Positions 2,308 to 20,518 of a DNA stretch of 20,916 nt are shown in pieces. Origin of the DNA: a virus. Positions within the stretch are counted from its first letter, which is position 1; each line of letters starts with the position of its first letter. A model generated the notes under the pieces. That model had not been told where the DNA came from, ran no database searches, and saw nothing but the letters and a program-made list of their open reading frames with translations. The stretch is taken from the IMG/VR virus record IMGVR_UViG_3300021091_000496, positions 1 through 20,916 of that record. One strand, given 5' to 3'. Both the position numbers and the translations under genes were made by a program.

Positions 2308-3003
2308 ATGAGCAAAGTTATAAATTTTATAGCACAAGATGACTATGTTTGGAATGTTATGCCAAAGCCATTTCCTGCAGTAAAAGGACTCCCAGACTGG
2401 TGGAAAGAAATGCCAATATACAGTTTTGGCGAGTTTGACATATCACCATACTCTACCGTAACTGTAAAAAGATGTGTTCCTACAATGGACATGTTTAGTG
2501 CTGGTTATTATGTTCCGTTATGGGCAGATCTTTTTATAAAACAAGAAAATCAAAATCCTGTTATTAAATTTATAACAAATAGAAATGTTTTAGAAGTTTG
2601 GGATTTTGAACAAATATCAACTTTTAAAATACCAGACGGATTCAATAAAATTATTTTTAAAAACATGCATGGCTGGACAATTAAAACTCCGCCTGGTTGG
2701 TCTTGTCTTTTTATACATCCTCAAGCATATTTAGATACCCCATTTTATACAATATCTGGAATTGTAGATACAGATGTTTATGATGGAGAAATAAATGTTC
2801 CATTTGTAATTAAAGATGGATTTGAGGGCACCATAAAAAAAAATACACCAATGTTTCAAGTTATTCCATTTAAAAGAGAGCGTTGGAATTCAAGTTTTGA
2901 TGTAAAAAAACCTAATGAACACTTTTTTTATAATCAAAAACTTTATTCTAATATACATCGGGCTTATTATTCTTTAATAAAAGATAAAAAAATATATAAA
3001 TAA
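2308..3003 (+). CDS. DUF6065-like protein (first copy)
   Basis: This 231-residue protein has no signal peptide or membrane segment. Near residues 128-190 it carries PPGWSCLFIHP, then GIVDTDVYDGEINVPFVIK, then NTPMFQVIPFKRERW. The order PPG, G-(I/V)-(V/I)-(D/E)-(T/S)-D, N-P-F-like strand, then T-P-x-x-x-x-I-P, is shared with the second copy at 19209-19997. I recognise this as a DUF6065-like phage and bacterial family; its biochemical role is not known. The protein is likely all-beta in its second half. It has no clear ribosome binding site and lies 5 bases behind the preceding gene, which suggests coupling. The coding DNA is markedly AT-rich. Confidence 0.6.
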   Translation: MSKVINFIAQDDYVWNVMPKPFPAVKGLPDWWKEMPIYSFGEFDISPYSTVTVKRCVPTMDMFSAGYYVPLWADLFIKQENQNPVIKFITNRNVLEVWDFEQISTFKIPDGFNKIIFKNMHGWTIKTPPGWSCLFIHPQAYLDTPFYTISGIVDTDVYDGEINVPFVIKDGFEGTIKKNTPMFQVIPFKRERWNSSFDVKKPNEHFFYNQKLYSNIHRAYYSLIKDKKIYK

Positions 3004-17824: not shown

Positions 17825-18253
17825 TTATTTAGCAACTTTTACTTTAATTTGTTTTGGTTTTTTATCTTCTGGAACTATACGTTCAATGTTAATATTTAAC
17901 ATACCGCAACAAATTTCTGCTCCAGTTACTTCCATGTATTCGCCTAAAGCAAATGTACGAGTAAATTTACGAGAAGCAATTCCTTTATGAACAACCTCTC
18001 CTTCTTCTGTATCATTAGTTTCGCCTTTAATAATTAATGTTGCATTATCCACAGAAACATTAAGGTTTTCTTCATCAAATCCAGCAACAGCCAAAGATAG
18101 TTTATATGTATCTTCGTCTACCTTAATAATGTCATATGGCGGATACGCCTGACGTGTTGCTAAATTATGTACTGTATTAAAACGCTCCAATTCACGATTG
18201 AAGCCAATAAAAAAAGGATCTTTAAATAGATCCAGCGCAAATGAACTTACCAT
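17825..18253 (-). CDS. hsp20: Small heat-shock protein (Hsp20/IbpA type)
   Basis: This 142-residue protein has an N-terminal arm (LFKDPFFIGFNRELERFN), then an alpha-crystallin domain that starts at YPPYDIIKVDEDTY and ends with the family signature GMLNINIERIVPE. It resembles IbpA-like holdases, ATP-independent chaperones that keep unfolding proteins soluble. Hsp20 genes are common in T4-like cyanophages, so one here fits a large tailed phage. Two starts are possible: ATG at 18280 with GGGGG upstream, and ATG at 18253 with AAGGAG 5 bases upstream; the latter gives the more usual N-terminus. A hairpin in the leader may control the first. Confidence 0.9.
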   Translation of the reverse strand: MVSSFALDLFKDPFFIGFNRELERFNTVHNLATRQAYPPYDIIKVDEDTYKLSLAVAGFDEENLNVSVDNATLIIKGETNDTEEGEVVHKGIASRKFTRTFALGEYMEVTGAEICCGMLNINIERIVPEDKKPKQIKVKVAK

Positions 18254-18284
18254 TTTATTCTCCTTTTCAGCGAGTTTCATTTAT

Positions 18285-18317
18285 GTACCCCCTTTTGGCA
18301 GGTACAAATCTATTATA
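18285..18317 (-). promoter_or_regulatory. hsp20 promoter -10 box and 5' hairpin over a ribosome binding site
   Basis: On the minus strand a TATAAT box (18312-18317) is followed by GTACC (18301-18305), which pairs with GGTAC (18285-18289). Two more C-G pairs surround an AAAA loop, with a bulged G. The 3' arm contains GGGGG (18288-18292), the ribosome binding site of the ATG at 18280. Pairing would hide it at low temperature, as in RNA thermometers. No experimental support exists for this site. Confidence 0.4.
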
Positions 18318-18328
18318 CCAAATGTTAG

Positions 18329-18400
18329 TACCCCCAAGGGGAATTGAACCCCTGTTACCACCGTGAAAGGGTGATGTCATAACCACTAGACCATGAGGGC
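18329..18400 (-). tRNA. tRNA-Glu (anticodon UUC)
   Basis: The 72-base sequence folds as a cloverleaf. The acceptor arm pairs GCCCTCA with TGGGGGT (one G-U), the anticodon stem is TCACC/GGTGG with loop CTTTCAC (anticodon TTC), and the T-arm is AGGGG/CCCCT with loop TTCAATT. It closely resembles actinobacterial tRNA-Glu. The 3' CCA is not encoded, so it must be added. It is separated from the tRNA-Gly by one base, which suggests a common precursor. Confidence 0.93.
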
Positions 18401-18401
18401 G

Positions 18402-18476
18402 TGGAGCGGAAGACGGGATTTGAACCCGCAACATCTACCTTGGCAAGGTAGTATTCTACCGTTGAACTACTTCCGC
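18402..18476 (-). tRNA. tRNA-Gly (anticodon GCC)
   Basis: The acceptor arm pairs GCGGAAG with CTTCCGC, the anticodon stem is CTACC/GGTAG with loop TTGCCAA (anticodon GCC), and the T-arm is GCGGG/CCCGT-like with loop TTCAAAT. Unlike the neighbouring tRNA-Glu, it ends with an encoded CCA. A possible -10 box, TAATAT (18484-18489), lies 7 bases before the 5' end, so transcription may begin close to the mature end. Confidence 0.93.
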
Positions 18477-19183: not shown

Positions 19184-19212
19184 AGTATATCGTTTTTTGA
19201 TATAAAAGTCAA
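19184..19212 (-). promoter_or_regulatory. Strong promoter TTGACT-17-TATACT
   Basis: TTGACT (19207-19212) and TATACT (19184-19189) are 17 bases apart on the minus strand; the -35 box overlaps the end of the upstream gene. Transcription should start near 19177, leaving a leader of roughly 33 bases with AAGGGG before the ATG at 19143. Hexamers and spacing are identical to those at 2051-2079 and 20665-20693. Confidence 0.8.
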
Positions 19213-19997
19213 TTTTTATTTTTTTTAGGCAGTTGATGATCTTTAAATTTATTACCACGTACGTCTGTTCCTAAATAATATATTCTATCAGAACCTAAAT
19301 TATTTTTGTTTGAAATACTTCTTTTATCAGCATGTTCTTTTGTAACAATTATTTCTTCTTTTATTATTTCTTCGCTAAAAATATCATAAGCATTTTTTAA
19401 CTCAAAAGAATCACAAAAATATCTTGGTATTGGAATCATACCAACTATTGGCGTATTTGGCTCAATAATAATGTTTGTATCTATTAAATCTATTTTTAAA
19501 TTTAAAGTAAAAGAAAATCTAATGTTATCAGATTCTATAACTCCAGTCATTGGACTAAGTCCAGGTGTAGGAAAATTTGGTGGAGCAATAGTCATTAAAT
19601 TTATACCAGGAGGAGTTTTTAAAGTTAGCGGAAAGTGAATTGTTAGAACTCCATGACCAAACTCCGAAGTTGGATTAATAAAATTATATTTTTCATAAGG
19701 ACTAACATCATCATAATATTTTATAGATAAATCTTTTCTATCATTTCCGCCATTCCATAAAACACTAAACCTATATGGTAAACTAAAAACAAATCCCTGC
19801 ATGTTTCCAATAGAAAGTGGCAAACATTTATAGAAATTTGAAGTAAACCAATCTCTTTTATGATTTTTATTTAAAGGTTTTAAAAATAAATTAATATCCT
19901 TTAAATCAAAAGGTTTAAATCCATCTTCTGGAACTACTGGAAAAAAAACAATAGTTTTTTCTGGAACAACTAACTCTGTATCTTGATTAATTATCAT
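19209..19997 (-). CDS. DUF6065-like protein (second copy)
   Basis: This 262-residue protein shares its central order with the copy at 2308-3003: TPPGINLMTIAPPNFPTPG, then GVIESDNIRFSFTLNLKI, then NTPIVGMIPIPRYF. It differs in a longer N-terminal part (TELVVPEKTIVFFPVVPEDGF) and a Lys-rich C-terminal tail. It has no membrane segment. I recognise the same DUF6065-like family without a known function. It overlaps the upstream peptidase gene by ATGA and so is co-expressed with it, which may hint at a shared process. Confidence 0.65.
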   Translation of the reverse strand: MIINQDTELVVPEKTIVFFPVVPEDGFKPFDLKDINLFLKPLNKNHKRDWFTSNFYKCLPLSIGNMQGFVFSLPYRFSVLWNGGNDRKDLSIKYYDDVSPYEKYNFINPTSEFGHGVLTIHFPLTLKTPPGINLMTIAPPNFPTPGLSPMTGVIESDNIRFSFTLNLKIDLIDTNIIIEPNTPIVGMIPIPRYFCDSFELKNAYDIFSEEIIKEEIIVTKEHADKRSISNKNNLGSDRIYYLGTDVRGNKFKDHQLPKKNKN

Positions 19998-20518
19998 ATA
20001 CTTACTACGTCAATAGGTCCCATACAAGATGGGCTAAATTTAATAGCAGCATTAACTGCTCCAACCACTCTTTTACGAGCATCTTTAGATTTTTCTGTTG
20101 CATTTAAATAACCATAAGCATATTCTGAACCAGACCCCATGGCTAAATAATCTAAATTATATTTAGATAAAGACATATCAACTGCATTATGTTCATATAT
20201 TTGACCTTTAATACAAATAATTAAACCAAGATCAGCCTCTTTGCCAGTATCAACCCACCAGTCACTATAAAAGTTTCTTAGTTGTTTAATAAATTTAGTT
20301 TGCATAAATTTATCTAAATCTTTTATATCTGGCACATATGGATTAAAATTATAACGAATACGTTCTCCATCCAAAGCCCCAGCATATCCAAGCAGGTATG
20401 GACCAAGTTTCCAAACCTTTGGTGCCATTAAAGAAAGTATTGTATTATCGTCAGATGCACCACGATCTCCAGCCATATAGATTTTATTCTCATGGCGAAC
20501 TACGGCAAGGCAAGTCAT
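19994..20518 (-). CDS. Proteasome beta/HslV-like Ntn hydrolase
   Basis: This 174-residue protein starts Met-Thr-Cys. Removal of Met would expose Thr as residue 1, with D17 in AGDRG and K33 in APKVWKL in the positions of the Thr1-Asp17-Lys33 triad of proteasome and HslV subunits, and a Gly-rich loop (LLGYAG) nearby. It has about the length of HslV and no obvious propeptide. It may form a self-compartmentalising peptidase that acts on phage or host proteins; no ATPase partner is visible in the window. A GGGAG site lies before the ATG at 20518. The gene is coupled to the second DUF6065-like gene by ATGA. Confidence 0.82.
   Translation of the reverse strand: MTCLAVVRHENKIYMAGDRGASDDNTILSLMAPKVWKLGPYLLGYAGALDGERIRYNFNPYVPDIKDLDKFMQTKFIKQLRNFYSDWWVDTGKEADLGLIICIKGQIYEHNAVDMSLSKYNLDYLAMGSGSEYAYGYLNATEKSKDARKRVVGAVNAAIKFSPSCMGPIDVVSI

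Follow-up and report, generated by a model that had tools for sequence, protein, structure and literature searches.

A probable ROSE-type RNA thermometer in the 5′ leader of phage hsp20 genes

The hsp20 locus and its leader

The window, the whole stretch of 20,916 nucleotides analysed here (positions 1 to 20,916 of IMG/VR virus record IMGVR_UViG_3300021091_000496), carries on its minus strand a gene for a small heat-shock protein with an alpha-crystallin domain (hsp20, 17825–18253; Pfam PF00011, 3.6e-17; phrog_432, 1.1e-36). Genes for tRNA-Gly(GCC) and tRNA-Glu(UUC) lie directly 5′ of its leader (18328–18476, minus strand), and the order along this strand is tRNA-Gly, tRNA-Glu, TGG–TATAAT, hairpin 1, a spacer, hairpin 2 and the ATG at 18253. 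The putative promoter, TGGTATAAT (18312–18320, minus strand), is of the extended −10 type, with TATAAT at 18317–18312 and TGG before it at 18320–18318. Given the usual 7-nt spacing, the transcript is predicted to start at about 18305, the first base of hairpin 1. The tRNA-Glu gene ends 7 nt from the extended −10 element; in relatives, the same leader follows other tRNA-like ends or none, as judged by eye.

Hairpin 1 (18284–18306, minus strand) reads UGUACCU-[G]-CC-AAAA-GG-GGGUACA. Its inner part, GUACCU-[G]-CC-AAAA-GG-GGGUAC, spans 18305–18285, and an outer U–A pair extends it to 18306–18284. Hairpin 2 (18260–18274, minus strand; CUC-[G18271]-CU-GAAA-AG-GAG) has five pairs and a GAAA tetraloop. 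The two hairpins have a core in common, in which a pyrimidine paired with G is followed by a bulged G and then a C–G pair; in hairpin 1 this core is U18300, bulged G18299 and C18298 opposite G-G, and the AAAA tetraloop occupies 18296–18293. The 5′ arm of hairpin 2 contains the ROSE motif UCGCU (18273–18269), which pairs with the Shine–Dalgarno sequence AAGGAG (18260–18265, minus strand; conserved in the leader alignment). Six bases separate the end of AAGGAG from the start codon that is conserved in alignments of relatives (18251–18253, minus strand, in the context ATG GTA AGT). As a separate observation, the octamer GGGGGTAC occurs twice on the minus strand, at the 3′ end of tRNA-Glu (18335–18328) and in the 3′ arm of hairpin 1 (18292–18285).

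When positions 18307–18240 are folded at 37 °C, the minimum free energy (MFE) is −14.2, compared with −9.5 ± 2.6 for shuffled sequences (z = −1.8), and 8 of 200 shuffles fold as well. Support for hairpin 1 from the single sequence is therefore modest, and the comparative evidence carries the case. The hairpin with a bulged G and an AAAA loop that the first-pass annotation had described is present in this fold at 18306–18284 on the minus strand, and its 3′ arm remains paired across the modelled range of 4–50 °C, with mean probabilities of 0.91 to 0.87. Hairpin 2 is present both in the 37 °C fold of 18307–18240 and in the fold of the leader alone. The AAGGAG before the 18253 start, which had been read as unpaired, is thus the 3′ arm of hairpin 2 in both of these MFE structures; it is unpaired in the competing fold considered below.

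Which start codon is used decides which hairpin matters. We collected at least 80 IMG/VR loci with hsp20 relatives, 77 of which hold enough of the leader, yielding 57 distinct leaders; L040, L042 and L016, with a missing or cut leader, were left out. The extended −10 promoter is present as TGNTATAAT in all 57. The earlier view that a TATAAT box would set the start almost exactly at the hairpin agrees with the +1 predicted here, at about 18305. The same annotation had proposed that hairpin 1 hides a GGGGG ribosome site for an ATG at 18280 and that the phage makes two forms of Hsp20, one from 18280 and one from 18253. The window's reading frame is indeed open from 18280, but the start common to relatives in the leader alignments is the ATG at 18253: an upstream ATG is absent from 35 of the 57 leaders, occurs only out of frame in 19 and is in frame in 3, one of which is trivial because it directly precedes the real ATG. 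As relatives do not keep an upstream ATG in frame, we take 18253 as the start, and the hairpin relevant to the start of translation is therefore hairpin 2. On these counts we reject GGGGG as the ribosome site of an 18280 start, and we consider it extremely improbable that hairpin 1 controls one of two Hsp20 forms. Hairpin 1, which masks no ribosome site in use, is the counterpart of the stable hairpin at the 5′ end of short ROSE elements.

Conservation of the leader among phages

Conservation of pairing in related leaders had been set beforehand as one test that could refute the thermometer idea; the pairing is conserved, and hairpin 1 covaries. Across a MAFFT alignment of 58 leaders from the window's group, 95.2% of cells form the proposed pairs (91.7 ± 0.3 in shuffles) and 32 cells are changed on both sides (6.5 ± 2.0 in shuffles, with none of 500 as high). 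Sliding the structure by +2 columns gives 23 doubly changed cells, but only 58% are paired. Counting pairs with a double change is a weaker measure and gives a less clear result (five, versus 3.1 ± 1.0 when shuffled; 37 of 500 shuffles as high). All of the double changes lie in hairpin 1, and no pair of hairpin 2 is changed on both sides, its changes being one-sided only. A covariance model built on this alignment, R1, was run over 81 sources, of which L040 and L042 lack the full leader and 58 had supplied the sequences for the model itself; all 79 sources that include the leader yield a single element per locus, located at the hsp20 leader. Seven further matches score below 18 bits and lie on the opposite strand.

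The wider comparison used 11 leaders from named phages (a twelfth record, L093, was set aside as a yardstick) and three further viral scans with the proteins of S-SM2, Melnitz-3 and HTVC008M as queries, which gave at least 80, at least 80 and 32 loci. After removal of cut or duplicate leaders and of L093, 204 leaders remained, distinct within, not between, groups. Among these matches listed and named phages, the motif T[TC]GCT occurs 14–36 nt before the start in 200 of the 204 (window's group, 60/60; cyanophage, 62/62; Melnitz, 60/60; HTVC008M, 7/11; named, 11/11), as against 17 of 353 control leaders, namely other leaders with a Shine–Dalgarno sequence from the same loci. A structural test that demands both bulged-G hairpins is passed by 190 of 204 phage leaders (60/60, 62/62, 55/60, 5/11 and 8/11 in the same order of groups) and by none of 348 controls or 3350 shuffles. 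A test for hairpin 2 by itself is passed by 196 of 204 leaders, 5 of 348 controls and 69 of 3350 shuffles. We prefer the structural test because a composite pattern based only on sequence, which passes 180 of the 204 leaders, also passes 9 of 353 controls. A plain-word pattern was discarded as not specific; in 21 phage genomes it occurs at the hsp20 leader in many and elsewhere in several.

The element is thus found in cyanophages, pelagiphages, methylophilales phages, rhizobial phages and the window's own group. The motif is followed by a Shine–Dalgarno sequence in 10 of the 11 named phages; in Vibrio phage PWH3a-P1 the word occurs only at −35, a position that we did not count as convincing, and the element is lacking. 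Five of the 11 leaders in the HTVC008M group are without the motif plus Shine–Dalgarno sequence. Both hairpins are present in 11 of 13 further named phages (P-RSM6, S-SSM7, ACG-2014f, P-SSM4, S-CAM1, S-RIM12, S-RSM4, ACG-2014d, Syn2, S-RIM8 and S-RIM32). Pseudomonas phage 30-3 has hairpin 1 together with a UUGCG variant, and the leader of Salicola phage SCTP-2 has neither hairpin.

Fourteen controls pass the motif plus Shine–Dalgarno pattern, 11 of them owing to a T[TC]GCTA block, promoter-like in appearance, that cyanophages carry after hsp20. This block, TTGAC...T[TC]GCTA..A, is repeated before the open reading frame (ORF) that follows hsp20 at L095, L103–L107, L114, L119, L121, L133 and L137. 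Several cyanophage leaders also contain TATAAATA, which we take to resemble a T4 late promoter. The hsp20 of Synechococcus phage S-CAM7 (L086) is annotated from 509; judged by its ROSE-type leader, it would start at about 422.

Across groups, the Y-[G]-C/GG core of hairpin 1 is constant and the pairs around it covary. Pair counts were made on 61 representative leaders, that is, 67 representatives minus six without both hairpins; a MAFFT alignment of 62 diverse leaders was left out of them because it misregisters hairpin 1 of one group. The outer pairs use every Watson–Crick type, for example at position −3 (GC 19, CG 15, UA 14, AU 12 and UG 1). The parse forces pairing at positions −1 to −3 and leaves −4 and −5 free, and the latter are paired in 100 and 93% of the 61 leaders, compared with 64 and 40% when the arms are permuted. 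In MFE folds computed without the motif, 48 of 67 representatives show a one-base 5′ bulge in the hairpin 1 region (43 G, 4 A and 1 U), versus 285 of 2010 shuffles, of which 29 are G. The other 19 representatives include 15 in which the core letters are present but the inner bases pair differently, and 3 (L230, L233 and L250) that form another hairpin instead. Hairpin 2 shows little variation: position −3 is CG in 54, UA in 6 and UG in 6 of the across-group representatives; position −4 pairs in 64% compared with 40% after permutation, above all 2000 permutations, and positions −5 and −6 show no excess pairing over permuted arms.

Likeness to known ROSE elements

The Rfam family ROSE_3 (RF02523) aligns end to end with the window sequence (position 1 to 69; 15.0 bits, E = 0.32 over 4227 families), with both hairpins aligned as an AUGCC..GGGU-like hairpin 1 and ACUcGCU..aGgAG in hairpin 2; this score does not reach the gathering cut-off of 43. 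Listed ROSE_3 matches include 5 of the 11 leaders from named phages (24.9–34.1 bits) and 3 of 20 further loci (26.5, 34.1 and 37.3 bits), the last of which, L181, is the best among the phages scored. Over 10 whole phage genomes, searched with stricter filters that lost some leaders, the best place for ROSE_3 is the hsp20 leader in three (34.1, 26.8 and 24.9 bits; E = 1.6e-6, 1.3e-4 and 5.0e-4), and two others have 10-bit matches elsewhere only. No scored phage leader reaches 43 bits apart from L093 (69.2 bits). Because none of the tested phage leaders passes the cut-off, an Rfam annotation run would miss those tested. L093 itself is an unverified Pseudomonas phage Y7 record with an ibpA-like gene and a full ROSE_3 match, and is probably host DNA. 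Among other Rfam families, 30_292, preQ1-II and Mu-gpT-DE were rejected, with scores far below their cut-offs.

The structure of ROSE1 has a bulged G. Features given for ROSE elements in the literature are a bulged G in the motif strand, two to four hairpins with the 5′ one or ones stable, and a small heat-shock gene downstream. In the window, G18271 is bulged in both folds, there are two hairpins, the first of which stays paired in the model, and the gene downstream is hsp20 (Pfam HSP20, phrog_432). The closest description, in passages of PMC3669281 on the Pseudomonas ibpA element, is of two hairpins in which U(U/C)GCU faces the Shine–Dalgarno sequence in hairpin II, hairpin II melts and hairpin I does not, and deletion of G39 stabilises hairpin II; the role of the first hairpin in bacterial ROSE elements is there called not fully understood. 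The phage leader shares with that element (PMC3669281, in the same passages) the two-hairpin layout with a stable first hairpin, the U(U/C)GCU:Shine–Dalgarno pairing in the second and the small heat-shock gene. It differs in being viral and known here from sequence alone, in having a sensor of five pairs with a GAAA tetraloop, and in its promoter, an extended −10 box rather than a sigma-32 one. In the E. coli ibpA leader, too, UCGCU faces AGGAG, and a 5′ hairpin has the core of hairpin 1 as C-[G]-CC..GGG; this leader passes the structural test for hairpin 2, but its cores lie 56 nt apart, compared with 28 in the window.

Other relatives of the motif precede other genes. The ROSE-G motif, as outlined in part of PMC12857270, likewise has a bulged G in the anti-Shine–Dalgarno strand, but with a CUGCU motif and an opposing bulged G, 5′ of ABC transporter genes. 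ROSE-like candidates before ABC transporter genes in PMC11342760 share the UUGCU motif and include some in actinomycetes and thus in Gram-positive hosts; they differ in the genes concerned, and that paper contains neither ‘virus’ nor ‘phage’. We found no report of a phage ROSE thermometer in a search of titles and abstract openings (few subscription journals, preprints outside), and the words ‘thermometer’ and ‘untranslated’ are absent from a paper on cyanophage Hsp20 (PMC5028025). The kind of element is already known, and its viral branch, the breadth of that branch and the core shared by both hairpins appear to be new.

WhiB (PF02467), encoded on the window, points to a host that is probably actinobacterial; WhiB has been called a suggested key indicator for actinophages (PMC10202952, in part). 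The window also has a match to DUF7455. Hosts such as Actinobacteria may have hsp20 genes of their own without the ROSE module, as none was found in the genomes sampled. A scan with R1 under stricter filters revealed no element before hsp20 among 394 genomes sampled from the class of a Bifidobacterium record, a sample that may lack the true host order; its one match at E ≤ 0.1 scores 24.2 bits. ROSE_3 over 296 genomes, also with stricter filters, gave two matches at E ≤ 0.01 (27.8 and 27.0 bits), and no hsp20 was seen by eye near these R1 and ROSE_3 matches among ORFs of at least 90 amino acids. The DUF7455 match presumably also fits an actinobacterial host. Bacterial genome contigs contributed 15 hsp20 loci, one of which, L286, has both hairpins; the other 14, mostly from gut metagenome-assembled genomes (MAGs) at 22–33% identity, have neither motif nor hairpins. 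L286 (also L315) is a contig of a Chitinophagaceae MAG whose hsp20 has a window-type leader (R1, 55.4 bits), and is probably a binned phage contig.

Proposed control by temperature and by Hsp20

The leader has the anatomy of two-hairpin ROSE elements, matches them and is conserved among phages, with covariation in hairpin 1, and we consider it probable that the hsp20 5′ leader is a viral ROSE-type RNA thermometer. Transcription would start at hairpin 1, which would stay folded, cap the mRNA, help hairpin 2 to fold and probably protect the 5′ end. At low temperature, UCGCU (18273–18269) would pair with the Shine–Dalgarno sequence (18265–18260) around the bulged G and keep ribosomes off; as the host warms, the weak five-pair hairpin 2 would open and Hsp20 would be made from the ATG at 18253, presumably to the benefit of the phage. 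Hsp20 bound to the leader may add self-repression, as reported for IbpA. The first-pass annotation had already noted a likeness to ROSE-type elements; comparison supports its thermometer well, but not its anatomy, as the sensor would be hairpin 2, over AAGGAG and the 18253 start.

Predicted energies agree with this mechanism only in part. For the leader alone, the cost of opening the Shine–Dalgarno sequence falls on warming, from 5.1 (20 °C) to 3.1 (37 °C) and 2.6 kcal/mol (42 °C), near the 6.2, 4.5 and 4.1 kcal/mol at the same temperatures for the ibpA-type yardstick L093. L093 reaches the phage's 20 °C cost at about 31 °C, a shift that would be in keeping with a host from cold water. With at least 12 coding bases added, the window's spacer can pair with codons 2–6 in the model, the Shine–Dalgarno sequence then lies in a loop and its opening costs 0.1–0.6 kcal/mol at all temperatures; a site closed in the cold and open in the warm, as described for ROSE elements, is thus predicted for the leader alone and not once coding bases are present. 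This possible competing fold (18238–18283, minus strand) pairs the spacer and ROSE motif (18283–18269) with the end of the start codon and codons 2–6 (18251–18238). The energy model is not decisive, because the opening cost fails to separate hsp20 from controls and L093 with 40 coding bases also loses hairpin 1 in its MFE. The Shine–Dalgarno sequences of the 204 leaders open no less readily than those of 262 control genes (p = 0.98 at 20 °C and 0.94 at 30 °C); only for the region to +6 is the opening cost slightly above that of controls (p = 0.03 at 20 °C and 0.004 at 30 °C).

The competing fold invites comparison with the lambda cIII mRNA, a phage thermometer described, in part of PMC4166951, as having two competing folds, which are predicted in the window's leader too; it differs in that the ribosome site partly closes on warming and the gene is another one. 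A bistable hsp20 leader of that kind would, in the cold, pair its spacer with codons 2–6 and free the Shine–Dalgarno sequence, then form hairpin 2 on warming, so that translation falls. The predicted folds lean this way: with 12 coding bases the spacer:codon helix is the MFE up to 25 °C, with the change between 25 and 30 °C, and in a longer piece of the window it remains so up to 45 °C, with hairpin 2 at 50 °C. Moreover, spacer–coding duplexes in the window's clade are stronger with their own partners than with permuted ones (−12.2 versus −11.2 kcal/mol, 5 of 5000 permutations), although these 29 haplotypes are related and not independent and the window's coding slice starts 2 bases early. The excess is absent from other clades (−6.3 versus −6.6 in 9 haplotypes), where most MFEs keep hairpin 2. 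Because the helix covers bases just after the AUG, it would hinder ribosomes too, and may therefore add to repression in the cold or be a second state. To our knowledge, hsp20 thermometers run in the opposite direction, and we regard a leader that closes on warming as very unlikely. A 5′-terminal hairpin that merely protects the mRNA, followed by an ordinary ribosome site, strikes us as similarly improbable. Hairpin 1 does begin at the predicted +1, and the loop it has most often (11 of 61) is the stable UUCG tetraloop, but protection leaves unexplained the conserved U(U/C)GCU opposite the Shine–Dalgarno sequence, the conserved bulged G and the alignment of ROSE_3 over both hairpins.

A further possibility, which we hold to be less probable than direct sensing by the RNA but worth considering, is that the leader is an operator for self-repression: phage Hsp20 would bind both bulged-G hairpins and block translation until client proteins titrate it, with the protein as the main sensor of temperature. 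A Y-[G]-C/GG core in both hairpins, with a variable stem of hairpin 1 and variable loops, is what would be expected of a protein site. According to passages in PMC10474464, IbpA represses itself through its 5′ UTR, R93 is essential for binding this UTR, an aromatic residue at 34 is needed as well and R93K is inactive; R93 is said there not to be conserved in Gram-positive Hsp20. By alignment to E. coli IbpA, the equivalents of R93 and Y34 in the window's Hsp20 are R95 and Y37, counted from the ATG at 18253. At the R93 position, 185 of 194 phage proteins have Arg (56/56, 60/60, 52/59, 10/10 and 7/9 by group; the rest are 8 Lys and 1 Ser), the Y34 position is Tyr or Phe in 194 of 194 and the R97 position is Arg or Lys in 193 of 194. 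Against this, the Arg is a weak test because the surrounding region is cationic in human small heat-shock proteins too (PMC10474464, same passages), eight of the phage proteins have the Lys that is inactive in IbpA, and K98 is not kept. Self-repression would in any case be compatible with the thermometer, and the two are not exclusive.

We tentatively suggest that the two could work together in a phage ROSE module, in which twin bulged-G hairpins and an IbpA-type Hsp20 that binds both cores and represses itself combine thermometer and feedback; hairpin 1 would be the anchor site of the protein, and phages would carry the module into hosts such as Actinobacteria. If the thermometer is real, many aquatic viruses would adjust the output of a chaperone to temperature or protein damage while infecting their hosts, and phages may time chaperone production by temperature. 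The phage hosts concerned cover cyanobacteria, Pelagibacter, Methylophilales, rhizobia and probably Actinobacteria. The roughly 200 natural sequences show which parts of the ROSE element are constant and suggest that hairpin 1 contains a second bulged-G core.

Near hsp20, a second proteostasis gene (19994–20518, minus strand) matches a phage HslV-family peptidase (phrog_1040, 5e-19), and its protein has a Pfam Proteasome match at the cut-off. The window also holds two genes of phrog_7084, a family of unknown function (2308–3003, plus strand, and 19209–19997, minus strand), and encodes an iron–sulphur cluster assembly protein (PF01521; 1163–1492, minus strand) on this phage contig.
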